Virus record (IMG/VR): IMGVR_UViG_3300028131_000026
Location: 1 to 31,059 of that record
Reading direction: 5' to 3' (one strand)
DNA length: 31,059 bases
Origin: a virus
Of the stretch, positions 15,258-30,885 are shown in pieces. A program made the translations under genes and the position numbers. The notes beneath the pieces are model-generated. The model ran no database searches. It saw only the letters and a list, made by a program, of their open reading frames with translations, and had not been told where the DNA came from. The stretch's first letter is position 1. Each line of letters opens with the position of its first letter.

Positions 15258-15659
15258 TTACCTACCGTGCAGTGGGTCATAGCCAATTGCCTCCGCTAAT
15301 TTGCTCATAGCAAGTTCAAAATATGTCATAAATTCTGCCTGTGTCATGGCACTAAACTCTGTGCTGTCCACATGGCGCACGATGCTGGACGTAAGCGGCG
15401 ATATGGTGGTCTTGTAATAGCCGCAAACCAATTTCAGTTCATGGTGTAAGTGTTGGGCTGTCGGCCACATACCAGTGCTTTCACACGCGGTTTTCAAGGT
15501 TGACCAATACAGGTTGTGGTGCGGGTTTGATCTTGTCCCGGTCACTGACAGGTTAAAAAGCTGTCCCGATTTGCACTCGCCTAAACGCTCGGAGTCATGT
15601 TGAGAAACAGGCAGTAACTGCCCATCCCTCAACTCAACTTGAATTTTAGGCACTTTCAT
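15258..15659 (-). CDS. DUF1367/NinB-like recombination-associated protein
   Basis: This 133-residue protein has the pattern of DUF1367 and related NinB-like phage proteins: TRSNPHHNLYWSTLKTACES, then MWPTAQHLHHELKLVCGYY, and a C-terminal FMTYFELAMSKLAEAIGYDP helix. NinB-type proteins bind single-stranded DNA and modulate annealing-type recombination. The neighbours here, SSB and an ERF annealing protein, fit that pathway. Its start overlaps the upstream stop as ATGA. The choice between DUF1367 and NinB cannot be made by eye. Confidence 0.7.
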   Translation of the reverse strand: MKVPKIQVELRDGQLLPVSQHDSERLGECKSGQLFNLSVTGTRSNPHHNLYWSTLKTACESTGMWPTAQHLHHELKLVCGYYKTTISPLTSSIVRHVDSTEFSAMTQAEFMTYFELAMSKLAEAIGYDPLHGR

Positions 15660-17480: not shown

Positions 17481-17651
17481 ATGCTAACGCCAGACGAAAT
17501 TCGTGAAAAGTTAACTGACGTAAACATGAGCAAGATTGCTAGGGAGACAGGTTTAACGCGCCCGACGATATATAAATTTCTGACCGGGGCTGAAAATATG
17601 CAGTATGATACTGTCAAAAGGGTTTCGGAATACTTTGAAAGGGAAGTCTAA
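17481..17651 (+). CDS. Cro/CI-like small HTH repressor
   Basis: A 56-codon gene preceded by GGAG seven bases upstream of ATG 17481. The protein is one helix-turn-helix domain: MSKIARETGLTRPTIYKFLT forms helices 2 and 3, and ENMQYDTVKRVSEYFE the closing helices, the arrangement of lambda Cro/XRE-type regulators. It stands at the divergent switch between the recombination operon (leftward) and the replication genes (rightward), the classic position for Cro. Its stop overlaps the initiator start as TAATG. With no integrase in view it may regulate timing rather than lysogeny. Confidence 0.8.
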   Translation: MLTPDEIREKLTDVNMSKIARETGLTRPTIYKFLTGAENMQYDTVKRVSEYFEREV

Positions 17652-18343
17652 TGTCTCACCAAATGACAGCACTTGCTATGGAACAGGACTTAGCTCCTGC
17701 CCCAAAGATTGTTCTGTATTGGATTGCTAACCACCATAACGGTGAAACTGGATTGTGCTTTCCGAGTATCAACAGGCTGGCTAAGGTGTGCAGAATGTCC
17801 CGGCGATCTGTGGAGAAGCATATAGCCGATTTGGCAGGGCTTGGTCTTATACAAGTGACTCAAAGGTTTCGTGCTGAAGGTGGTAAGACTTCCAATAGTT
17901 ACCAGTTGTTTCTCAAGAGTTCCCAAGAGTTCCAGACCGATGCGCAAAATCTGCGTATGGGTAGCGCAAAATCTGCGCATGGGGATACGCAAAATCTGCG
18001 CATGAATAACCTTGGAAGAAAGAACCTTGGAATAGAAGATAATATATTGGTCGAAAAGTTTGACGATTTTTATAAATGCTTTCCAAGAAAGACGGCGAAG
18101 GGTTTAGCGAGAAAGGCTTGGGAACTTGCAGTTGCAAAGACCAACCCTGATGTTATTATTTCAAAGGCTGCTTTGTATGCGGCCAGTGTAGAGGGCAAAG
18201 ACAAAAAGTTTATCCCGCATCCCGCTACATGGTTAAATCAAGAACGATGGGATGATGAAGTATTCGCTCAAGCAGACAGCGAACAAGATCAACAAAACTT
18301 AGTGCATAAGATTTTTGCAGAAATGGTGAAACCAAATGCGTGA
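17651..18343 (+). CDS. Replication initiator, HTH_36 type, lambda O-like
   Basis: This 230-residue protein has an N-terminal winged-helix initiator domain (residues 10-90: KIVLYWIANHHNGETGLCFP, then SINRLAKVCRMSRRSVEKHI, and a wing ending NSYQLF). A linker (about 90-130) is encoded by repeated DNA. The C-terminal domain (FDDFYKCFPRKTAKGLARKA, then IPHPATWLNQERWDDE) is a form common in phage replication proteins and probably contacts the helicase loader. As in lambda O, the probable origin lies inside the gene. It is coupled to the Cro-like gene upstream and overlaps the next gene by eight bases. Confidence 0.82.
   Translation: MSHQMTALAMEQDLAPAPKIVLYWIANHHNGETGLCFPSINRLAKVCRMSRRSVEKHIADLAGLGLIQVTQRFRAEGGKTSNSYQLFLKSSQEFQTDAQNLRMGSAKSAHGDTQNLRMNNLGRKNLGIEDNILVEKFDDFYKCFPRKTAKGLARKAWELAVAKTNPDVIISKAALYAASVEGKDKKFIPHPATWLNQERWDDEVFAQADSEQDQQNLVHKIFAEMVKPNA
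17914..18055. other. Probable origin of replication with iterons inside the initiator gene
   Basis: In order: two tandem copies of CAAGAGTTCC (17914-17933); three copies of a 20-base iteron GCGCAAAATCTGCGCATGGG (starting 17942, 17964 and 17987, with one, zero and about three mismatches); two copies of AACCTTGGAA (18008 and 18023); then an AT-rich tract to about 18055. Each iteron holds a dyad GCGCA-N5-TGCGC, with slight decay at the flanks. Copy 2 of the iteron is in a different reading frame from copies 1 and 3, so DNA rather than protein sequence is conserved. The layout parallels the lambda origin inside gene O. Confidence 0.75.
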
Positions 18344-18954: not shown

Positions 18955-20187
18955 ATGAACGAACAAAACTGGCCAGCGGACAAAGTAGAACGCAGAAGCA
19001 TAAGCAGCATCATCCCTTATGCCCGAAACAGTCGAACCCACAGCGATGAACAGGTGGCGCAGATAGCCGCCAGCATTAAAGAGTGGGGATTTACGAACCC
19101 GATATTGATCGACATCGATGGCGAAATAATAGCGGGTCATGGCAGACTTCTCGCCGCGCAAAAGCTCGGTTTAAAAGAGGTTCCCTGTATTACCGCTGTT
19201 GGGTGGTCGGATGCTCAAAAGAAAGCCTATGTCATTGCCGACAACAAGCTGGCGCTAAATGCTGGATGGGACAACGATATGCTGGCCATTGAGTTTGGCG
19301 AGCTTAAAGATTTAGATTTTAACTTAGATTTAATCGGTTTTGACTCCGATGAACTTGCCAACATCCTGAAGGAGCCTGAAACTGAAGGTTTGACAGACGA
19401 GGACGCCGTGCCAGAAGCGCCGGAGGTTCCTGTTACAGTTGAAGGCGATGTTTGGTTGCTTGGGTGCCATAGGCTTATGTGTGGAGACAGCACAAGCATT
19501 GATGCAGTTGAGAAGCTGATGGATGAGCAAAAAGCTGACGTCCTTTTTACCGACCCTCCTTATGGAATTGATTTCTCACCACAGCGGGGAACGCATGGCA
19601 AAATATTGAATGATGCACTTGAGGGGGAAGAATTTGACGAGTTTTTAAATGATACCTTCGCCACCGCTATGTCTGCAATGAAACCTGACACATATGCGTT
19701 TATTTGGACGGGTTGGAGTAAGATTGGCGCATTTGAAAAGGCCATAAAAAAGTTTTTTAAAATTCAAGCGATGCACATTTGGGTAAAAAACAATTTTGGT
19801 ATTGGTTATTATTCAAGGCCAAAACATGAGCCGTTCTATTTGTGCCTTAATGGTAAGCCCGTTTATCCATCGACTGCCCCTGCTGATGTTTGGGAAGAAA
19901 AGAGGGTTCACAAGACCATCCACAGTTGCGAAAAGCCAGTGGATTTGATTACAGATATTCTTGACACATATCACAAAAACAGCACGGTGCTTGATTTATT
20001 TGGTGGCAGCGGTTCCACTCTAATTTCTTGCGAAAAGACAGCCCGAGATTGCCGCATGATGGAGTTAGACCCGAAATACTGCGATGTTATCATAAAGCGC
20101 TGGCAGAACTTTTCAGGACAGAAAGCAAAGCTGGAGGCAACTGCGCAAACCTATGATGAATTGAAGCAAGAACGGGTATCGGCATGA
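18955..20187 (+). CDS. ParB-domain DNA methyltransferase (N6-adenine/N4-cytosine, beta class)
   Basis: This 410-residue protein joins two domains. Residues 12-100 are a ParB/Srx-like domain (IPYARNSRTHSDEQVAQIAA, GEIIAGHGRLLAAQKLGL). Residues about 165-400 are an amino-methyltransferase, with DPPY at 200-203 (TDPPYGIDF) and the S-adenosylmethionine site LDLFGGSGSTLISCE near 342-356. DPPY before FGGSG with the target region between them is the beta order. It would methylate adenine or N4-cytosine in phage DNA, protecting against restriction or marking sites; no partner nuclease is nearby. AAGGA precedes the start, and its stop overlaps the small terminase start as ATGA. Confidence 0.9.
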   Translation: MNEQNWPADKVERRSISSIIPYARNSRTHSDEQVAQIAASIKEWGFTNPILIDIDGEIIAGHGRLLAAQKLGLKEVPCITAVGWSDAQKKAYVIADNKLALNAGWDNDMLAIEFGELKDLDFNLDLIGFDSDELANILKEPETEGLTDEDAVPEAPEVPVTVEGDVWLLGCHRLMCGDSTSIDAVEKLMDEQKADVLFTDPPYGIDFSPQRGTHGKILNDALEGEEFDEFLNDTFATAMSAMKPDTYAFIWTGWSKIGAFEKAIKKFFKIQAMHIWVKNNFGIGYYSRPKHEPFYLCLNGKPVYPSTAPADVWEEKRVHKTIHSCEKPVDLITDILDTYHKNSTVLDLFGGSGSTLISCEKTARDCRMMELDPKYCDVIIKRWQNFSGQKAKLEATAQTYDELKQERVSA

Positions 20188-22432: not shown

Positions 22433-23062
22433 ATGGCAATCACAACTTATTCAGAGCTTCAATCTTCCATTGCCAATTGGCTTAATCGTAATGGTGATAC
22501 ATCGTTACTTTCGGTTATTCCTGATTTCATTGCGCTGGCAGAGGCCGATATAAATCGCAAACTGCGTCATTATAAAATGATTGAGCGTGTTGATGCAGTG
22601 CTTGATAGCCGATATGTGCAAGTGCCTAACAATTGGTTGGAGACGGTTCGGTTTAATATCACCGCATCAACTACGGTCAAATTAGATTTTATTGGCCCAG
22701 AAGATATGCTGGAAAAACGGCAGAACAACAGCGACACTGCTGGCATTTCTCGTTATTATACGCAAATGGGGGAAGCTATAGAGGTGTTCCCAACTCCCGC
22801 TGCGGAATATCCTATGCAGCTTGCTTATTATGCGCAAATCCCAAGTTTGAGCGATAGCGTTACTTTTAATTGGTTGCTGCAAGATCAGCCTGATGTTTAC
22901 CTGTATGGCGCACTAATGCAATCGGCTCCATACTTGCTAGATGATGCGCGAACCCAGACTTGGGCTGGCTTGTATCAAAACGGTTTGGCTTCACTGCAAA
23001 AGTCATCTGATGACACTAGGTTTGGTGGTTCTGGTCGCAGAATTATTATAACTAGTTATTAA
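22433..23062 (+). CDS. Head-tail adaptor protein, SU10-like
   Basis: This 209-residue protein matches the SU10-type adaptor: TYSELQSSIANWLNRNGDTS, then IPDFIALAEADINRKLRHYK, MIERVDAVLDSRYVQVPNNW and ISRYYTQMGEAIEVFPTP, with a C-terminal QDQPDVYLYGALMQSAPYLL. In podoviruses this family forms the ring between portal and tail nozzle, as gp4 does in P22. Its presence supports the SU10/phiEco32 assignment made from the capsid. ATG 22433 follows the previous stop immediately. Confidence 0.82.
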   Translation: MAITTYSELQSSIANWLNRNGDTSLLSVIPDFIALAEADINRKLRHYKMIERVDAVLDSRYVQVPNNWLETVRFNITASTTVKLDFIGPEDMLEKRQNNSDTAGISRYYTQMGEAIEVFPTPAAEYPMQLAYYAQIPSLSDSVTFNWLLQDQPDVYLYGALMQSAPYLLDDARTQTWAGLYQNGLASLQKSSDDTRFGGSGRRIIITSY

Positions 23063-23495: not shown

Positions 23496-24611
23496 ATGGC
23501 TGGATACGGCTCAGGAAACTATGGCGCTCGTTTATTTGGGCTTGATGGCACTGTAAAAGATGCTTCAGCCCAAATAAGCGTGAGCGGTGCGTTTACTTCT
23601 GCCGCCTTCAAAACGGCAGCAGGCTCTTTAAGTGCGCCTGCTGTTTCTAGTGTTTTAGCGTCTGCGGAGCGTATAAAGCAATCAAGCGCTCAAATTTCTG
23701 CAACTGGTCAGATGGCCACTGTTGGCGTAAAAAACGCTTCGGCCACAATATCAGTATCATGCCAGTTAGCCGTTATAACTAGCGGTCAACGTGTCAGGGA
23801 AACCTCCGCAAATGTTTCTGCCGCATCGTCGGCAACTGCCAACGCTGAAAAAGAATTCCAGTTCCAAGCTCAAATCTCAGCTTCAAGCCAACTTGCAGCA
23901 AGCGGATTTAAAACTTCTTTAGTCGGCTCAACTATCTCAGCAACGTCAAGCGCCGCTGCATCTGGGTTTAGAAAAAGAGTTTCTTCCGCCTCGGTAAGCG
24001 TTGTATCATCTGCGACCGCATCAATGGTGCTTGTTAAAGACGCCGAGGCTCTAATTTCTGGGTCTTCGGCTTCGTCTGCGTCTGCTGATATTATTGTTGA
24101 CGGCGCTTCTTTGATCGCGTCCAACTCTGCATCCAATGTGAATTATGAGCGCAAGCGTGAAAATGGCGCAGTGTCTCTTGGTTCGTCTGGCGTATTTACG
24201 GTAGCTGTTAAAACGGCGTCTGCTGTAATTGTCAGCAGCCCGCAGCTAACAGTAGATACAAACAGCACCCGCGTCCGCGAGGCTTCATCTGCGTCAACGT
24301 CTGTTTCAGATGGCGCTTCATCCGGAGTGCTTATCGCCTCTGGTGCAGCGTCTATACCGGCGACTTCATCTATTGCCACTGTTGCCGTGGCTTCCCTTGT
24401 GGGCGCTTCCTCCGGGTTAGTTGCGTCAACTACGTCTGCTAACGGTCAAATAATTGCGGGCGGTAGCGCACTTGCAGCAAGTCGTGCTATAGTAAGCGCA
24501 AGCGCACGTTATAAGTGGCTCGAAGCGGACGATCCGACGACATCATGGACAGAAGCACCAAATCCAAGTAATACTTGGACAGATGCAGATTATTTAGAAA
24601 GGGCCGCGTAA
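23496..24611 (+). CDS. Ala/Ser-rich repeat protein, probable tail fibre shaft
   Basis: This 371-residue protein is built mainly of about sixteen degenerate repeats of 18-22 residues, each close to SAxISASSxxxASxxKxx; examples are SAQISATGQMATVGVKNA and SATISVSCQLAVITSGQRVR. The regular strand-turn pattern suggests a fibrous beta-structure, likely trimeric. The N-terminus (MAGYGSGNYGARLFGLDG) is a short aromatic cap and the C-terminus is a Trp-rich tag, WLEADDPTTSWTEAPNPSNT. It is probably a fibre shaft or spacer linking tail to receptor-binding proteins; neighbours on both sides are tail proteins. A stop-start TAATG joins it to the next gene. Confidence 0.6.
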   Translation: MAGYGSGNYGARLFGLDGTVKDASAQISVSGAFTSAAFKTAAGSLSAPAVSSVLASAERIKQSSAQISATGQMATVGVKNASATISVSCQLAVITSGQRVRETSANVSAASSATANAEKEFQFQAQISASSQLAASGFKTSLVGSTISATSSAAASGFRKRVSSASVSVVSSATASMVLVKDAEALISGSSASSASADIIVDGASLIASNSASNVNYERKRENGAVSLGSSGVFTVAVKTASAVIVSSPQLTVDTNSTRVREASSASTSVSDGASSGVLIASGAASIPATSSIATVAVASLVGASSGLVASTTSANGQIIAGGSALAASRAIVSASARYKWLEADDPTTSWTEAPNPSNTWTDADYLERAA

Positions 24612-24880
24612 TGCCTACGACAACGACAAACTATTCTTGGAATAAGCCAACCGTAGGCGGCGATGAAGACGCTTGGGGTGGTTATCTGAATGGCAACTGG
24701 GACAGCGTTGACACATTGCTTGGCGGCGTAACAAATTCTGAGTTTTCCGTTTTGAGCGGTCTTACAGCGTCCACAACAGAATTAAACTATGTCGATGGTG
24801 TTACCTCGGCTATTCAACCGCAGCTCGATGCAGCTGCAACAACAGGTAAGGCAATCGCAATGGCGATTGTTTTCGGTTAA
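24611..24880 (+). CDS. Stand-alone tail-fibre anchor domain
   Basis: An 89-residue protein starting at ATG 24611, one base into the previous stop. It opens TNYSWNKPTVGGDEDAWGGY, then LNGNWDSVDTLLGGV, the module found at the N-terminus of many marine phage tail fibres, and continues SGLTASTTELNYVDGVTSAI, also a frequent fibre segment. Usually this is fused to a long fibre; here it ends after about 42 further residues with a hydrophobic tip, AIAMAIVFG. It may be an adaptor that binds separate fibre subunits, or the remnant of a split fibre gene. Confidence 0.68.
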   Translation: MPTTTTNYSWNKPTVGGDEDAWGGYLNGNWDSVDTLLGGVTNSEFSVLSGLTASTTELNYVDGVTSAIQPQLDAAATTGKAIAMAIVFG

Positions 24881-24891
24881 GGAGAAGCCAC

Positions 24892-25266
24892 ATGGCCGCA
24901 CCAAACGTAGTAAATGTAGCCACTATCACTGCCAAGTCGGCGTTGGTGGCTTTGTCTTCAACCTCAGCAACAACGCTGGTCAGCAACGCTGCATCTAGTG
25001 GCAAGGTTTTCAAGATCAACATGATCCAGATTGCCAATGTCGATGGCACAAATGCCTGCGACGTTACTGTGGATGTGCACAGCGCCGCTGCTGGCGGTGG
25101 CACAGCTTACTCTCTGGTTGCGACTGCATCTGTCCCTGCTGACTCGTCGCTTATTGCTGTTGATAAGAACACAGCCCTTTACCTTGAGGAAGATCGCTCC
25201 ATCACCGTCACTGCTGGCACAGCAAACGACTTGGAAGTTATCGTAAGCTACGAAGAGATCAGCTAA
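24892..25266 (+). CDS. Beta-sandwich tail/fibre-associated protein
   Basis: A 124-residue protein preceded by AAGGAG. It begins MAAPNVVNVATITAKSALVA and shows alternating beta-strand segments (VFKINMIQIANVDGTNACDV, SLVATASVPADSSLIAVDKN, then SITVTAGTANDLEVIVSYEE), a Greek-key-like sandwich. Small proteins of this form are common beside fibre genes in marine phages and may decorate the virion or the fibre. The stop overlaps the next start as TAATG. No enzyme features. Confidence 0.6.
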   Translation: MAAPNVVNVATITAKSALVALSSTSATTLVSNAASSGKVFKINMIQIANVDGTNACDVTVDVHSAAAGGGTAYSLVATASVPADSSLIAVDKNTALYLEEDRSITVTAGTANDLEVIVSYEEIS

Positions 25267-26669
25267 TGCGCTTTATTGGCAACGCCCCTGTAGATGGTGA
25301 AGTTCGTGCTATCGCCTCTGGTGCGTTAGCCACTGGAGATACTGTTGCTGTGAACCCAGATGGCACTGTGAGTGTTGTGGCCGGTTCTTCTGAAGCATTA
25401 GGCTCCCCCGGATTGTACCGGAGTTCTTCAGTTGCTAACTCAGGCAACGCCGCAGTTTACGACGATAATGCTCAGAAAGTTGTGATTGTCTTTACAGACA
25501 ATTCGTCCCAAAATTTAAAGGCTGTTGTCGGCACTGTAAGTGGGACATCAATTAGTTTTGGCTCTGAGGTGGTGGTTGCTGCTCAAGGATATATTGTAAA
25601 ATTAGCCTATGACGCCAACGCTCAAAAAATTGTTGTAATTTTTGATAATCAGGCCGTCGTTGGAACAGTTAGCGGAACTTCCATTAGCTTTGGAAGCATC
25701 GCAACTTATCATGGTGCTTATGTTAGTGATTACGATATTACATATGATGCCAATGCGCAAAAGGTTGTTATAGCATACCGCAATTCGAGTTTTTACGGTG
25801 TTGCCATCGTCGGCACGATTAGCGGCACCTCTATTAGTTTTGGATCTGAAGCTGTCCACCTTTACAATCAAGCCACTAACAACTCTATTGTTTATGATGC
25901 AAGTGCGCAAAAGGTTGTCATCTTTTATACTGACCAAGGAAACACAACGTATGGCAAGGCTGTTGTAGGCACGGTTAGTGGCACGTCTATCAGCTTTGGC
26001 TCTAGTGTAGTTTTTGAAAGCGCACAGTCAGACTCTATAACCGCCACTTACGATGCGAATGCCCAGAAAACAGTTACAGGTTATCGACTTAGTAACAATG
26101 ACGGCAAGGCTGTTGTAGGCACGGTTAGTGGCACCTCTATTAGTTTTGGAACATCTGTGGTTTACGCATCCAACGCACCCGCAAGGTCATCCGTTTATGA
26201 CCCGACTGCTAAAAAAGTAATTATAACTTATCAAGATTCCGCAGACTCTTCTGCCGGAGACCTTGTTGTTGGCACTGTTAACGGCACTTCTATCAGCTTT
26301 GACTCGCCTGTTGCTTTTGAAAGCGGAGATGCAGATAGACAGAGCGCAACTTATGACGCTAACGCTCAAAAAATAGTTATAGCCTATAAGGATACTAGCA
26401 ACTCTGGGTACGGGACTTATGTTGTTTTTGCGCCAGCCTCCACCAACCTCACCTCCGAGAACTTCGTAGGTTTTGCCAATAGCGGCTACGCTGACGGACA
26501 ATCCGCAGCACTTAACTCGACTTGCTCCGTGGACAAGAACCAATCTGGTTTAACTGCTGGCGAGACTTACTATGTGCAGGGTGACGGCACGTTGGGTACA
26601 ACCCCCGCCGATCCGTCTGTTGTGGCTGGAACGGCCATATCTTCTAACTCTATTATCGTGAAAGGGTAA
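25266..26669 (+). CDS. Seven-repeat beta-propeller fibre protein 1
   Basis: This 467-residue protein has three parts. Residues 1-46 are an N-terminal beta module (EVRAIASGALATGDTVAVNP). Seven repeats of 44-53 residues follow, each with YDANAQKVVIAYRD-like strands and ending in VVGTVSGTSISFG. A C-terminal module ends NQSGLTAGETYYVQGDGTLG then TTPADPSVVAGTAISSNSII. Repeat 7 lacks the VGTVSG strand, as in the sister genes, so it probably closes the ring with strand exchange. Four strands per repeat and seven repeats predict a seven-bladed propeller. It is probably a receptor-binding fibre tip; carbohydrate binding is inference. Confidence 0.68.
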   Translation: MRFIGNAPVDGEVRAIASGALATGDTVAVNPDGTVSVVAGSSEALGSPGLYRSSSVANSGNAAVYDDNAQKVVIVFTDNSSQNLKAVVGTVSGTSISFGSEVVVAAQGYIVKLAYDANAQKIVVIFDNQAVVGTVSGTSISFGSIATYHGAYVSDYDITYDANAQKVVIAYRNSSFYGVAIVGTISGTSISFGSEAVHLYNQATNNSIVYDASAQKVVIFYTDQGNTTYGKAVVGTVSGTSISFGSSVVFESAQSDSITATYDANAQKTVTGYRLSNNDGKAVVGTVSGTSISFGTSVVYASNAPARSSVYDPTAKKVIITYQDSADSSAGDLVVGTVNGTSISFDSPVAFESGDADRQSATYDANAQKIVIAYKDTSNSGYGTYVVFAPASTNLTSENFVGFANSGYADGQSAALNSTCSVDKNQSGLTAGETYYVQGDGTLGTTPADPSVVAGTAISSNSIIVKG

Positions 26670-26674
26670 CTCCC

Positions 26675-26938
26675 ATGAAGACTATCGTTGAAACATCAAG
26701 CGGCTTGAGCAAGTACCTGCTTGCTGATGATGTGACCATCACTGCTACTGCTGATAACATCACAGTGGGTGATCCTGCACAGTTCATCATTGGTGACTTG
26801 AACAGCACCACAGTGACCGTCACTGACAACGTGACAAACGCACCAGACGATTGGACAGGCAACAAGTATTTCTTTGACGGCACTACATGGACATTGAACC
26901 CTGATTGGGTAGACCCGACACTCGACGGCGAGGAATAA
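26675..26938 (+). CDS. Small fibre-associated protein
   Basis: An 87-residue acidic protein between two propeller fibres. The pattern (MKTIVETSSGLSKYLLADDV, QFIIGDLNSTTVTVTDNVTN, and DDWTGNKYFFDGTTWTLNPD) is a family often placed next to fibre genes in marine phages. It could be a fibre assembly chaperone or a small bound subunit. No strong ribosome site is visible six bases after the previous stop, so translation may be coupled. The call rests on pattern memory and position. Confidence 0.6.
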   Translation: MKTIVETSSGLSKYLLADDVTITATADNITVGDPAQFIIGDLNSTTVTVTDNVTNAPDDWTGNKYFFDGTTWTLNPDWVDPTLDGEE

Positions 26939-26943
26939 TCTAA

Positions 26944-28326
26944 ATGCGCATCATTGGTAACGCTGGAAAAGCGAGAGAAGTACAGGCCGTTGCCAGTGGT
27001 GCGTTAGCTTCTGGTGACACTGTTGTTGTGAACTCCGATGGAACTGTGAGTGTTGTTGAGGGGAGTTCCGGGAGTATTGGGTCGGAAGCCGTTTTTTCCA
27101 CAACGTCCATACAGAAGCCGTCTGCGACTTTTGATACGAGCAATAACAAAGTTGCGGTTGCTTACCTCAACAACACTAACTACGCCACTGTTGCTGTTGG
27201 AACCGTAAGCGGAACGTCTATTAGCTTTGGTACGCCAGTTGTTGCAGAAAGTTCTGGTACGGAGGACACCACTGTTGTTTTTGATAGTAGCAATAATAAG
27301 GTTGTTTTAACGTATCGTGCATCAGGCAACGGCAAATCAGTTGTCGGCACGGTTAGTGGAACATCTATCAGTTTTGGTACTAAAGCTAGCTTTCAGTCAA
27401 GCGGGGTGGAGTATGTCCGCTCTGTCTTCGATAGTAACAGCAATAAGGTTGTAGCTATTTGGAGTAATGATAATAGCTCTAAGGCTGGAACGGCTGCTGT
27501 TGGCACAGTAAGCGGCACGTCAATTAGCTTTGGTTCGGCGGCAGTTTTCAAATCGAGCGGCATTTATTCCACGTCTCCTGCGTTTGACAGCACTAACAAT
27601 AAAATTGTTATAGCGTATGGAATTTCAAATATTATAGAAGCCGTAGTCGGCACTGTCAGTGGTACGTCTATTAGTTTTGGGACACCTGTATCATCGAGTG
27701 TTGGCGGCACATATAGAATACTGGCTATGAATGACAGCACTGGACAGGGTGTTATAGGTTATCGGAATAACGTATCGCCGTATGACGGCAAGGCCATATC
27801 CATAACTGTAAGTGGAACTTCGGTTAGCTTTGGCGCAGGCACACAATTTACTACAGATGTTAAAGCTGTTGACAGCGTTGTTTTTGACAGCAGTCGCAAT
27901 AAGTTCTTTATTGTTTACGGGGTAGATATCTACCCTGTAACTTTAAGCGGCACGGATGTTTCTTTTGGAAGCTCTTCTGCGATTTCATCAGAAAACATAG
28001 ATCAAACAGTTGGTGCGTTCGACAACAACGACAAACTTGTTTTGGCGTATCGAAACCTCACAGATTCGCAGCAGGGGCAGTCCTCAGTGTTTTCGCCACC
28101 ATTCACCAATGCAGACAGCTACATCGGCATAGCCGCTACAGGCGCACCTGATGGCCAAGGCGCTAAGATCAACATCAAGGGCGCTGTAGACGAGAACCAA
28201 TCTGGCTTGACCGCAGGTCAGAGTTACTACGTCCAGGCGGACGGCACGTTGGGTACAACACCAGCAGATCCAAGTGTATTCGCTGGCACTGCTGTAGCTG
28301 CAACCAAACTTATCGTGAAGGGCTAA
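26944..28326 (+). CDS. Seven-repeat beta-propeller fibre protein 2
   Basis: This 460-residue protein is a paralogue of the 25266 product: the same N-terminal module (EVQAVASGALASGDTVVVNS), seven repeats and the same C-terminal module (NQSGLTAGQSYYVQADGTLG). Repeat strands read FDSSNNKVVLTYRAS and VGTVSGTSISFG. Repeats 5 and 6 are more divergent (ISITVSGTSVSFG, PVTLSGTDVSFG). Here the A-strand position is mostly FDS rather than YDA, so the two genes have drifted into subfamilies. Probably a second receptor-binding protein or a variant. It is followed three bases later by the third fibre. Confidence 0.66.
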   Translation: MRIIGNAGKAREVQAVASGALASGDTVVVNSDGTVSVVEGSSGSIGSEAVFSTTSIQKPSATFDTSNNKVAVAYLNNTNYATVAVGTVSGTSISFGTPVVAESSGTEDTTVVFDSSNNKVVLTYRASGNGKSVVGTVSGTSISFGTKASFQSSGVEYVRSVFDSNSNKVVAIWSNDNSSKAGTAAVGTVSGTSISFGSAAVFKSSGIYSTSPAFDSTNNKIVIAYGISNIIEAVVGTVSGTSISFGTPVSSSVGGTYRILAMNDSTGQGVIGYRNNVSPYDGKAISITVSGTSVSFGAGTQFTTDVKAVDSVVFDSSRNKFFIVYGVDIYPVTLSGTDVSFGSSSAISSENIDQTVGAFDNNDKLVLAYRNLTDSQQGQSSVFSPPFTNADSYIGIAATGAPDGQGAKINIKGAVDENQSGLTAGQSYYVQADGTLGTTPADPSVFAGTAVAATKLIVKG

Positions 28327-28329
28327 GAC

Positions 28330-30885
28330 ATGGCACTAGATACCATTCCAAAGCAAGAGGGCGGTAAGCTCAAGGCCGTTGCATCTGGTACACTGCCAAG
28401 CGGCCAACCTGTTATTGTGAACAGTGATGGCACTGTAAGTGTTATTGCGAATTCTAGCCAAACATTAGGTACTCAATCTGAGTTTGAGTCGGCAGGTGTC
28501 AACGAGTTTGTAAAGTCAACTTTTGACTCTTCAATCGGAAAAGTTGTAATCATATTTCGAGATAGTGGAAATGCAAATTACGGGAGAGTTGTAGTTGGAA
28601 CGGTTAGTGGCACGTCTATCAGCTTTGGGACGCCCGTAACATTTGTGAGCAGTTCTGTCTCCAGTGCTGACGTTACCTTCGATTCAAATAGCAGCAAAGT
28701 TGTTATTGGCTATAGGCCTGAAAGCCCCAACCAAGGCTATGCAATTGTAGGTACTGTTTCTGGAACCTCTATTAGCTTTGGCACTCCGGTGGTCTTTGAC
28801 TCGTCGGCAAACGTAGACAATATATCAACTGTCTTTGACAGCAGTAATAATAAAGTTGTGATTTCATACAAAGACCCCGGAACTTCTTATTACTCGGTTT
28901 CAATTGTCGGAACCGTAAGCGGCACCTCCATAAGTTTTGGAACGCCCGTTGTGTTTAGAAGTGTAGGCATTGGCCCCATTTCTTCAACATTTGATTCGAC
29001 CAACAATAAGGTTGTTATTGCATGGCCCTACTCCAACAACGCTGAAGCTATTGTTGGGACGGTAAGCGGTACAAGCATTTCCTTCGGTTCTGTTGCGTCT
29101 ATGGACTCAAGTGTTGACAGTATAGGGATCGGGTTTGACTCAACAAATGGCAAAGTAGTTGCAGCGTACCGGAAAAATAGCACTAATAAATCCACTGCGA
29201 TTGTAGGCACTGTAAGCGGCACGTCAATTAGCTTTGGAACGCCTGTTATTTTTGAAGATGTTTCTCCAGTTAGGCCTTCGGTAGCATTTGATTCATCAAC
29301 TAACAAAATTGTCATTGCTTACGTTGCCTCGCAAGCTGTGACCGCTGTCGTCGGAGTCGTTTCTGGGACGTCCATTACCTTTGACCCGTCATTTCAAATT
29401 GACTCGTATGGCCCTTCATATCAATCGGCAGTATTTGATTCGACAAATAACAAAATAGTTATTTCTTACCAAAAAGATAGCGCAAGCGGCAAAGCTAATG
29501 TGCTTCAAAACGCCTCCACCAACCTCACCTCTGAGAACTACATCGGCATGTCTGGTGGGGTGGTTGCGGTGGAGGGTAGCGCAGAGCAGGAGATTGGAAC
29601 CCCTGCGGTTTTTGAAAGTGCCTCTATTGTTAATTTGTCTTCTACATATGATGCCGCTGCAAATAGATTAGTGTTAGCTTACAGAGACCAAGGCAATAGC
29701 AACAGAGGAACCGCAGTTGTAGGCACTGTCAGTGGCACCTCTATCAGCTTTGGCACTCCCGTAGTTTTTGAAACGGGAAACACTTATAGCGTTGCTATTA
29801 CCTACGAAGCAACAGCGGAAAAAGTTGTTGTTGTTTTTAGGGACAACGGTAATTCAGATTATGGCAAGGCTATTGTTGGAACGGTCAGCGGAACGTCAAT
29901 TAGTTTTGGTTCAGCAACTACTTTTGCGAGTGCTACTACATATGACGTTTCGGCAACTTTCGACAGCAGCGCCGACAAAGTTGTTGTTGTTTATAGAGAC
30001 GGTGCAAACTCAAACTATGGGACGGCTATCGTTGGTACAGTAAGTGGTACGTCTATCAGCTTTGGTAGCGAGGTTGTTTTTTCCTCTTCAAGCACCAGTC
30101 TATCCAATACCGCAACTGTATTTGACTCTGTTAACAACAAGGTTGTTATTGCGTACAGAGATGTTGGAGAATCCGACTACGGCAAGGCTATTGTTGGCAC
30201 AGTAAGCGGAACGTCAATTAGTTTTGGTTCAGCAACTACTTTTGCGAGTGCGCAATCTTATTATGTAGGTGCAACGTATGACTCTAGTGCAGGTAAGGTG
30301 GTTGTTGCATACGTTGATGGTGAAAACTCTCTTTACGGCACTGCTGTTGTAGGTGCCGTTAGTGGTACTTCTATTAGCTTTGGGTCAGAGGTTGTTTTTA
30401 ATTCCGCCTCAACTGAGCAAACGCTTGGACCGTCTTATGATGCTACCGCAAATAGAGTTGTTATTGCCTACCCAAATGCTGGGGACTCCAACAAGGGCAG
30501 CGTAGTTGTGGGCGCTGTGTCTGGAAGTTCTATTACATTTGAATCGCCTTCTGTATTTGATACAAGCTCCGTATCCCGTACAACTTCTGTGTATGACTCT
30601 AGTGCAGGAAAAATAATTATAAGTTATAGAGACGGTGGCAACTCCAGCTACGGAACCTCGGTCGTGTTTCAAACAGGATATACAAACGTCACCAGAGCAG
30701 AAGTAGCCGATGGCGACAATGCAACCGTTGACATCGTAGGCACTGTATCCACAAACCAACTAAGCCTCACCGCTGGGCAGCAGTATTACGTCCAGACAGA
30801 TGGCACTCTAAGCGAGACCCCCGCCGACCCAAGCGTCTTGGCGGGAACGGCAATATCTGCTACAAAGCTCATAGTAAAAACATAA
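28330..30885 (+). CDS. Double (7+7 repeat) beta-propeller fibre protein
   Basis: This 851-residue protein holds fourteen repeats of the same type in two sets of seven. The first set, up to about residue 400, resembles the FDSxNNKVVI subfamily. The linker SENYIGMSGGVVAVEGSAEQ joins it to the second set, rich in YDxxAxKVVVVYRDGGNSNY repeats. Both C-terminal repeats lack VGTVSG, as in the single-propeller genes. Only one N-terminal module (LKAVASGTLPSGQPVIVNSD) and one C-terminal module (NQLSLTAGQQYYVQTDGTLS) remain. It looks like a fusion of two single-propeller genes and probably makes a tandem double propeller. Confidence 0.68.
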   Translation: MALDTIPKQEGGKLKAVASGTLPSGQPVIVNSDGTVSVIANSSQTLGTQSEFESAGVNEFVKSTFDSSIGKVVIIFRDSGNANYGRVVVGTVSGTSISFGTPVTFVSSSVSSADVTFDSNSSKVVIGYRPESPNQGYAIVGTVSGTSISFGTPVVFDSSANVDNISTVFDSSNNKVVISYKDPGTSYYSVSIVGTVSGTSISFGTPVVFRSVGIGPISSTFDSTNNKVVIAWPYSNNAEAIVGTVSGTSISFGSVASMDSSVDSIGIGFDSTNGKVVAAYRKNSTNKSTAIVGTVSGTSISFGTPVIFEDVSPVRPSVAFDSSTNKIVIAYVASQAVTAVVGVVSGTSITFDPSFQIDSYGPSYQSAVFDSTNNKIVISYQKDSASGKANVLQNASTNLTSENYIGMSGGVVAVEGSAEQEIGTPAVFESASIVNLSSTYDAAANRLVLAYRDQGNSNRGTAVVGTVSGTSISFGTPVVFETGNTYSVAITYEATAEKVVVVFRDNGNSDYGKAIVGTVSGTSISFGSATTFASATTYDVSATFDSSADKVVVVYRDGANSNYGTAIVGTVSGTSISFGSEVVFSSSSTSLSNTATVFDSVNNKVVIAYRDVGESDYGKAIVGTVSGTSISFGSATTFASAQSYYVGATYDSSAGKVVVAYVDGENSLYGTAVVGAVSGTSISFGSEVVFNSASTEQTLGPSYDATANRVVIAYPNAGDSNKGSVVVGAVSGSSITFESPSVFDTSSVSRTTSVYDSSAGKIIISYRDGGNSSYGTSVVFQTGYTNVTRAEVADGDNATVDIVGTVSTNQLSLTAGQQYYVQTDGTLSETPADPSVLAGTAISATKLIVKT
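29890..30251 (+). repeat. Recent internal duplication in the double-propeller gene
   Basis: A 44-base stretch (29890-29933) is repeated exactly at 30208-30251, 318 bases downstream, equal to two repeats or 106 residues. Flanking sequence on both sides is also similar, for instance GGCAAGGC at 29863 and 30181. This points to a fairly recent duplication of a two-repeat unit. Confidence 0.7.

Follow-up and report, generated by a model that had tools for sequence, protein, structure and literature searches.

Few beta-propellers with a part in phage host recognition are described in the accessible literature, and those few are unlike one another. The C-terminal domain of PhiKZ gp131 (PDB 4GBF) is a seven-bladed propeller at the periphery of the baseplate, suspected to be a receptor-binding domain or an enzyme, and the receptor-binding protein (RBP) of Staphylococcus phage phi11 contains a beta-propeller with a cavity proposed for N-acetylglucosamine (both in the available text of PMC4901313). 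A seven-bladed propeller with velcro closure is present in the phage tail in the nozzle T7 gp12 / SU10 gp17 (PMC6702177, PMC9509320), propeller lectins are carried on the fibres of contractile injection systems (PMC12923769), and PLL lectins bind saccharides between blades, with a sugar-stacking tryptophan in the PLL-type sites (PMC6943638). This report concerns three genes, termed A, B and C, in the virus record IMGVR_UViG_3300028131_000026 of IMG/VR. The whole record of 31,059 bases was analysed (the window), and as it is classed as linear it is perhaps a fragment. A, B and C in all likelihood encode structural proteins of the tail-fibre region, whose putative host-binding propellers appear to be exchanged as cassettes on constant carriers. 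Seven-bladed phage propellers are known; what is new here is the split carrier with propeller exchange. Among the partly accessible texts returned by a literature search, no paper was recognisable as describing this propeller-carrier family; the cobavirus paper (PMC6775973) reports a variable fibre region, and the word propeller does not occur in its available text.

Gene A (25266..26669; all features lie on the + strand unless stated) encodes 467 amino acids (aa), gene B (26944..28326) 460 aa and gene C (28330..30885) 851 aa. An earlier note on this DNA had counted seven repeat units in A, seven in B and two sets of seven in C, and these counts and their coordinates were confirmed. The units begin at 25440, 25590, 25725, 25875, 26031, 26178 and 26334 in A; at 27112, 27262, 27409, 27565, 27712, 27865 and 28000 in B; at 28504, 28660, 28816, 28972, 29116, 29269 and 29416 in the first set of C; and at 29629, 29785, 29941, 30103, 30259, 30418 and 30574 in the second. 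A unit profile returned 7, 7 and 14 units, having been trained on those very units. Unit length is 45 to 54 residues, about 52 aa, and the consensus, 47 columns from 821 units, is SATYDSNAQKVVIAYRDGGNSNYGTAIVGTVSGTSISFGTPVVFESA. Each set comprises six units with the segment VGTVSGTSISF or a variant of it (exact copies number four in A, four in B and nine in C) and a seventh without it, and the observation that the final repeat lacks the VGTVSG strand therefore stands for all four sets. Unit 1 is preceded by a strand-like, D-like segment matching the missing fourth strand (IGTPAVFES before the second set of C), giving a predicted 3+1 closure of the ring. In agreement, the strands listed for the A model include a run at residues 49-66 before blade 1 and a last strand at 382-389; closure of the last blade by a strand from the other chain end is seen for the four sets at the level of sequence and strand list rather than of coordinates. 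The genes had been described as adjacent, and A, B and C are indeed neighbours, except that an 87-aa open reading frame (ORF; 26675..26938) separates A from B.

Structure prediction and fold searching were applied to the repeat sets. The AlphaFold2 model of A had a mean predicted local distance difference test score (pLDDT) of 94.5 and a predicted template modelling score (pTM) of 0.88 from an alignment of 57 sequences, and that of C had 81.9 and 0.50 from 21 sequences. Most 10-residue blocks of both C propellers scored 80-94 and the ends and the linker were poor, so two discs are predicted and their mutual placement is not. In VIA-align, A matched E. coli YncE with a Z of 32.4 over 304 residues, C propeller 1 (28462..29523, model residues 45-394) matched YncE with 32.8 over 305 residues, and C propeller 2 (29587..30687, model residues 434-785) matched the lectin BP39L with 32.4; the rows span residues 40-392 of A, and 40-396 and 434-785 of C. 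The set of A and both sets of C aligned over 304 to 320 residues at 2.5 to 2.8 Å with the best solved seven-bladed propellers. The top Foldseek rows for A were PLL-type lectins, a glycoside hydrolase and WD40-like propellers. As many unrelated propellers score Z 27 to 30, these results identify the fold and not the family. Three of the four sets (A and both of C) thus match closed seven-bladed rings, as the earlier note had proposed, and B, being 47% identical to A and having its own seven units, would be expected to form one too. From the models, a seven-bladed beta-propeller fold is near certain.

YncE, the best structural match, shares the seven-bladed ring (2.5 Å over 304 residues for A and 305 for C), but is a bacterial protein with 10 to 13% identity. 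The PLL family lectins (PLL, PLL2-5 and PHL of Photorhabdus) and BP39L/CV39L are likewise seven-bladed and score Z 28 to 32 over about 300 to 320 residues, but they are bacterial lectins rather than phage parts, with 6 to 14% sequence identity, and the 47-column consensus contains no tryptophan, the feature of the PLL-type sugar-stacking site. Among the phage systems, PhiKZ gp131 differs in giving no match by sequence profile and was not among the best 50 structural rows of each list; the phi11 RBP has five blades and forms a homotrimer with stem and tower; and T7 gp12 / SU10 gp17 is the core of the tail channel nozzle and not a fibre part.

Sequence profiles did not name the propeller. PF18050 (Cyclophil_like2) scored 29.5 bits in A against a cut-off of 22.7, covering residues 201-239 only, and reached E 0.01 in 27 of the 57 members; the WD40-type propeller PF24797 was found in 7 of the 57, among scattered next families. 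NCBIfam gave six unrelated names, each in one or two of the 57 members, and PHROGs matched A and C at E 0.0015 or worse and B not at all. These Pfam, NCBIfam and PHROG hits were treated as chance matches of the beta repeat. A sequence profile searched against solved chains up to E 1 retrieved only four antibody light chains (E 0.05 to 0.23).

Relatives were gathered by a scan of viral contigs with A (the best 80 of 92) and by two carrier scans (the best 79-80 of at least 233, and the best 80 of 224). Each propeller in them is an insert in a small split carrier with an N-terminal piece of about 40 residues and a C-terminal piece of about 71, and the parts that flank the propeller on either side act together like a single small domain. 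Inserts were counted in 299 non-identical complete ORFs, with the window (via locus L096) left out; 40 of these had no usable C-terminal match (partial or split) and one had a C-terminal match without an N-terminal one. The 262 carriers delimited held one insert of 330-430 aa in 238 cases, a double-length insert in 19 and an insert of another length in three, and two were empty. Exactly seven units were detected in 221 of the 238 single inserts, which argues against chance periodicity; the other 17, of the same length class, showed one to six detected units. Including one window protein (locus L096) makes these figures 263 carriers, 239 single inserts and 222 with seven units. Two of the three inserts of other length had seven units, and the third, L133:2924-4204, had six nearly identical ones. 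The similar contig L135 has a longer gene of 479 aa in that place, and the six-unit array may be either a real deletion or an assembly collapse. The invariance claimed in the earlier note therefore holds within the window and becomes near-invariance among relatives.

Units were also counted directly. In 147 complete ORFs a first profile found 119 seven-unit sets, nine fourteen-unit sets, each formed by two neighbouring sevens run together, and 49 sets with other counts, and a better one found 195 sets, with seven units in 150, eight in 12, six in eight, five in two, three in four, two in six and one in 13. By eye, the first match in all 12 eight-unit sets is the carrier N-terminal piece. Odd counts were judged by eye in 13 ORFs. 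Those of L054 and L063 do not encode propeller proteins, divergence precludes counting in L028:6728 and L065:9043, L013 (first set) and L079 are compatible with seven by length only, and the other seven show a seventh unit. Five loci came from a genome collection. L088, L089 and L091 have seven units each (L089 with one further sub-zero hit), and L090:3891-10949 is a 2353-aa ORF with four sets of seven, each followed by its own carrier end. L092:5445-7097 is a Sphingobacteriales protein with a signal-like start and seven units of the same repeat, and gave no carrier match; its C-terminal tail reads, by eye, like a type IX sorting domain. The L090 ORF adjoins one reading like tail-fibre J protein, on a contig that is binned as Euryarchaeota and is possibly a virus contig.

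Carriers without an insert occur naturally. Two are complete ORFs, L116:3863-4213 (117 aa) and L133:4442-4822, and a third, L135:3866-4195, is truncated by the contig end; empties were counted on ORFs only, because one scan hit can join a carrier end to the start of the next carrier. In gene A, profile and identity boundaries place the N-terminal carrier piece at 25266..25391, with the box DGTVSVV at 25359-25379, the propeller at 25398..26438, and the C-terminal piece at 26442..26666, with the box LTSENFVG at 26448-26471. The propeller of B extends over 27076..28098 and its C-terminal carrier piece over 28099..28323. In C, propeller 1 sits at the usual insertion point, and a carrier stretch (LTSENYIGMSGGVVAVEGSAE, 29524..29586, pLDDT 38-67 per block) separates it from propeller 2, which sits in a second carrier loop and is followed by the C-terminal piece (30688..30882, pLDDT below 50 in 788-818 and 833-851). 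The carrier would be a small beta domain that holds one seven-bladed propeller in a loop and, in C, a second in another loop. The position at which the C-terminal piece (71 model positions) is interrupted differs among the double proteins: near 7 in L054:6459, where the first part is a weak match, near 28-31 in, for example, L045, L048 and L069, and near 48-52 in L073:4472, L083 and L086. In L048:2874-5123 and L064:4884-7232 the second insert, in a further carrier loop, is by eye a different repeat (NGTKMYxVG-like), possibly another propeller type. The carrier matches phrog_4368, of unknown function, and a profile search with the empty carrier against the sequences of solved chains gave nothing better than E 0.21.

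The histories of carrier and propeller are largely separate. An initial identity comparison with pattern borders dropped 20 of 92 proteins because the border patterns failed; with profile borders, 107 single-insert proteins were compared, 87 of them non-identical. In the carrier cluster that holds gene A (12 proteins) mean identity is 86.9% between carriers and 43.1% between propellers; the cluster that holds gene B (eight proteins) has 88.3 and 42.2%, and a C-type cluster of four proteins has 87.8 and 39.1%, gene C itself lying outside because it is double. Carriers are at least 85% identical in 124 pairs, and in 90 of these the propellers are at most 55% identical. The converse is seen too, as five of 13 pairs with propellers at least 85% identical have carriers at most 65% identical, four propeller clusters span differing carrier clusters, and one cassette is shared by three carrier clusters, each represented by a different contig (L009, L037 and L050). 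Two other carrier clusters have propellers of 84 and 81% and carriers of 97 and 98% identity, as expected of close relatives.

At the DNA level, gene A and L009:5001 are 98% identical at the start, 49-72% in the propeller and 94-97% at the end. The reverse applies to L015:6462 (carrier C) and L061:5001 (carrier B), with 48%, 98-100% and 61-73%. A near-identical propeller lay in a different carrier type in both of the two cases examined, and in these both switches fall within the boxes that encode DGTVSV and LTSENYIG. For 37 proteins compared in 98 pairs, mean DNA identity is 76-98% over the final five codons of the first box and drops to 39% at the codon that follows, and at the second box it climbs from 34% to 67-79%, the low values at the box borders being in part lost alignment register. 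By sequence comparison, the propeller appears to be a unit of exchange in a split carrier. Whole propellers would be replaced as cassettes that switch at the two short conserved boxes (DGTVSVV and LTSENYIG), and we infer recombination at the boxes as the process.

The propeller would be the host-binding part and the carrier the constant attachment part. By convention, one face of a propeller carries the D-A and B-C loops and the opposite face the A-B and C-D loops. Strands and C-D turns are conserved, and the D-A and B-C loops are the most variable between blades and phages, which suggests that the variable loops between these strands may take part in binding. Over 280 units, mean entropy was 2.59 bits for D-A, 1.71 for B-C, 1.66 for A-B and 0.25 for C-D, the pattern used itself constraining some strand and C-D positions; without that constraint C-D entropy was also low (0.34 to 1.04). 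The ratio of nonsynonymous to synonymous differences (pN/pS) in 59 pairs was 0.48 for D-A and 0.37 for B-C, 0.24 and 0.30 for the loops of the opposite face and 0.15-0.30 within strands, the segment pattern labelling only a minority of codons. Since pN/pS is below 1 in every class, positive selection on the loops is not shown. As for hypermutation by a retroelement, PF00078 was found in none of 19 chosen related contigs, which are possibly fragments, and none of the window ORFs scanned with PHROGs was named a reverse transcriptase, no PF00078 search having been made of the window.

The neighbourhood of relatives bears on where in the virion the proteins might sit. L116 encodes, in order, tail fibre J (phrog_31), a fibre assembly gene, two small proteins, a 120-aa relative of the protein encoded at 24892, an 87-aa protein, an empty carrier, a filled carrier and phrog_3287. 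In L020, a 1154-aa protein matches tail fiber phrog_38058 over residues 261-670 and its units start near 730, and in L036, L030 and L027, by eye, ELNYVDGVTSNIQ precedes the propeller module. The contexts in L116 and L020 favour the tail over the capsid. The placement at the tail tip proposed in the earlier note is supported by relatives with the module as the C-terminal part of tail-fibre-like proteins, and less directly for A, B and C, which have no fibre part of their own. The proteins are inferred to lie at the fibre and to bind a receptor, and because the loops vary and the fold resembles that of lectin propellers, they may bind a saccharide ligand, possibly host glycans.

One alternative is that the propellers decorate the capsid, where they would bind loosely to surfaces, with the carrier serving as a head protein of the cement type. 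It draws on the weak likeness of the B carrier to PF09956 (Phage_cement_2, cut-off 24 bits): gene B scored 26.2 bits in one search and 21.4 in another, its N- and C-terminal pieces joined with the propeller left out 25.8, and the C-terminal piece alone 22.9. The likeness is not consistent between carriers, as the joined pieces of A gave no match at E 0.1, those of C scored 18.7 bits and the three natural empty carriers 16.2, 13.9 and 13.3 bits, and in relatives the module follows tail-fibre-like parts or lies beside tail fibre J and fibre assembly genes. Capsid decoration is therefore considered unlikely. The propellers might instead be glycosidase- or lyase-like enzymes that degrade a surface polymer, since sialidases and the glycoside hydrolase BT3686 appear among the Foldseek rows and virginiamycin B lyase (Z 31.8) among those of VIA-align. 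In the 57 aligned relatives, however, only A, G, S, L and Y occupy invariant columns, and the nearly invariant (90%) charged residues, D and K, lie mostly at matching positions of successive blades, which looks structural; with no singular conserved site seen, an enzymatic role appears very unlikely. The number seven could also have been inherited from a single ancestral array, without ring closure imposing it. All relatives are homologous and a six-unit array exists, as this would allow, but arrays of nearly identical units, which could readily change length, keep seven (L018, L020 and L024, for example) and the models match closed seven-bladed rings, so that this explanation is most improbable.

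In the broadest form of the exchange proposal, a small number of carriers, each specific to its gene, are retained among marine phages, and whole seven-bladed propellers come from a common pool. Recombination at the two short boxes, acting as landing sites, would bring them in, also across carrier types; a carrier could lose its propeller (the empty carrier) or take up more than one insert (a second propeller, or a different repeat, in another of its loops). This form is offered tentatively, with rather less than even confidence. Several of the results weigh against the main reading above, of tail-fibre proteins with host-binding propeller cassettes. The correlation between carrier and propeller identity is weak, yet not zero (r 0.198, with 7 of 2000 permutations as high, for 87 proteins), and in 26 of the 124 pairs with similar carriers the propellers are at least 80% identical. 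Mean entropy hardly differs between the B-C and A-B loops, which lie on opposite faces, pN/pS gives no sign of positive selection, the array in L133 has six units, and the B carrier resembles a cement protein. In three pairs of carriers B and C, the boxes share 24, 11 and 24 exact bases on the C side and 6, 6 and 8 on the N side, which is thin homology for recombination, and the few bases on the N side make population-wide exchange slightly less probable. The viral relatives are, furthermore, metagenome contigs, in which assembly chimeras are possible, and assemblers may have joined strains at the conserved boxes; the 24-base exact match on the C side in two of the three pairs would suit such an artefact. 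Against it, the N side of the same pairs shares just 6 to 8 exact bases, the flanks outside the boxes are 48-73% identical away from the borders, and the same cassette recurs across three carrier clusters on three contigs, which makes an assembly origin of the exchanges quite unlikely. With genuine exchange of propellers on constant carriers, a family with more than 200 viral relatives would make the binding part both a physical and a genetic cassette, of equal ring size, on a constant carrier and with sharp borders. For uncultured phages, this would tie propeller sequence to the host surface in a testable way, and the carrier would be a small scaffold of natural origin able to accept whole propellers in several of its loops.

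Distant homologues with the C-terminal carrier piece are gp49 of Lentibacter phage vB_LenP_ICBM2 (A0A3G2YRE6) and a protein of marine virus AG-345-O18, which are annotated as 'hypothetical protein' or not at all. They are about 21 and 30% identical, with 5 and 7 units detected, several of them low-scoring, and gp49 matches the A model by fold (TM 0.73).

Pfam and PHROGs identify a portal, scaffold, major head protein, large terminase and SU10-type adaptor in the window. The adaptor (22433..23062; PF24175, E 2.8e-34; phrog_2941) marks the neck/tail module upstream of the fibre genes. Just upstream of these genes, 23496-24611 encodes a 371-aa protein that is rich in Ala/Ser/Val repeats and has no Pfam or PHROG match. 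Next come a small tail-fibre-like protein of 89 aa (24611..24880, with an alternative upstream TTG at 24575), a 124-aa protein immediately upstream of A (24892..25266), then A, B and C, and the start of a gene truncated by the contig end (30895..31059), which by eye resembles the beginning of the virion structural protein (phrog_3287) encoded at L116:5684-7159. The 89-aa protein ends in TGKAIAMAIVFG, as do longer ORFs of L054 and L063, that of L054 matching a tail fiber PHROG. Neither the 124-aa protein nor the 87-aa ORF between A and B matched a Pfam or PHROG family. By eye, proteins similar to the former lie upstream of carriers in L116, L133 and L135, and an ORF very similar to the latter lies directly upstream of a carrier in the same three contigs. 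L133 also has, at 2030-2533, an ORF that is HNH homing endonuclease-like by eye, between a fibre gene and the 124-aa gene, which is absent from the similar L135.

Elsewhere in the window, a NinB/Orf-like recombination mediator (15258..15659, - strand; phrog_319, E 2.5e-11) is a candidate helper of short-homology exchange. A ParB-like N-terminal domain is fused to an N6/N4 DNA methyltransferase at 18955-20187 (Pfam), and a 22-base tandem repeat of 2.9 copies (17939-18004), within the replication-initiator gene 17651-18343, is perhaps the phage origin.

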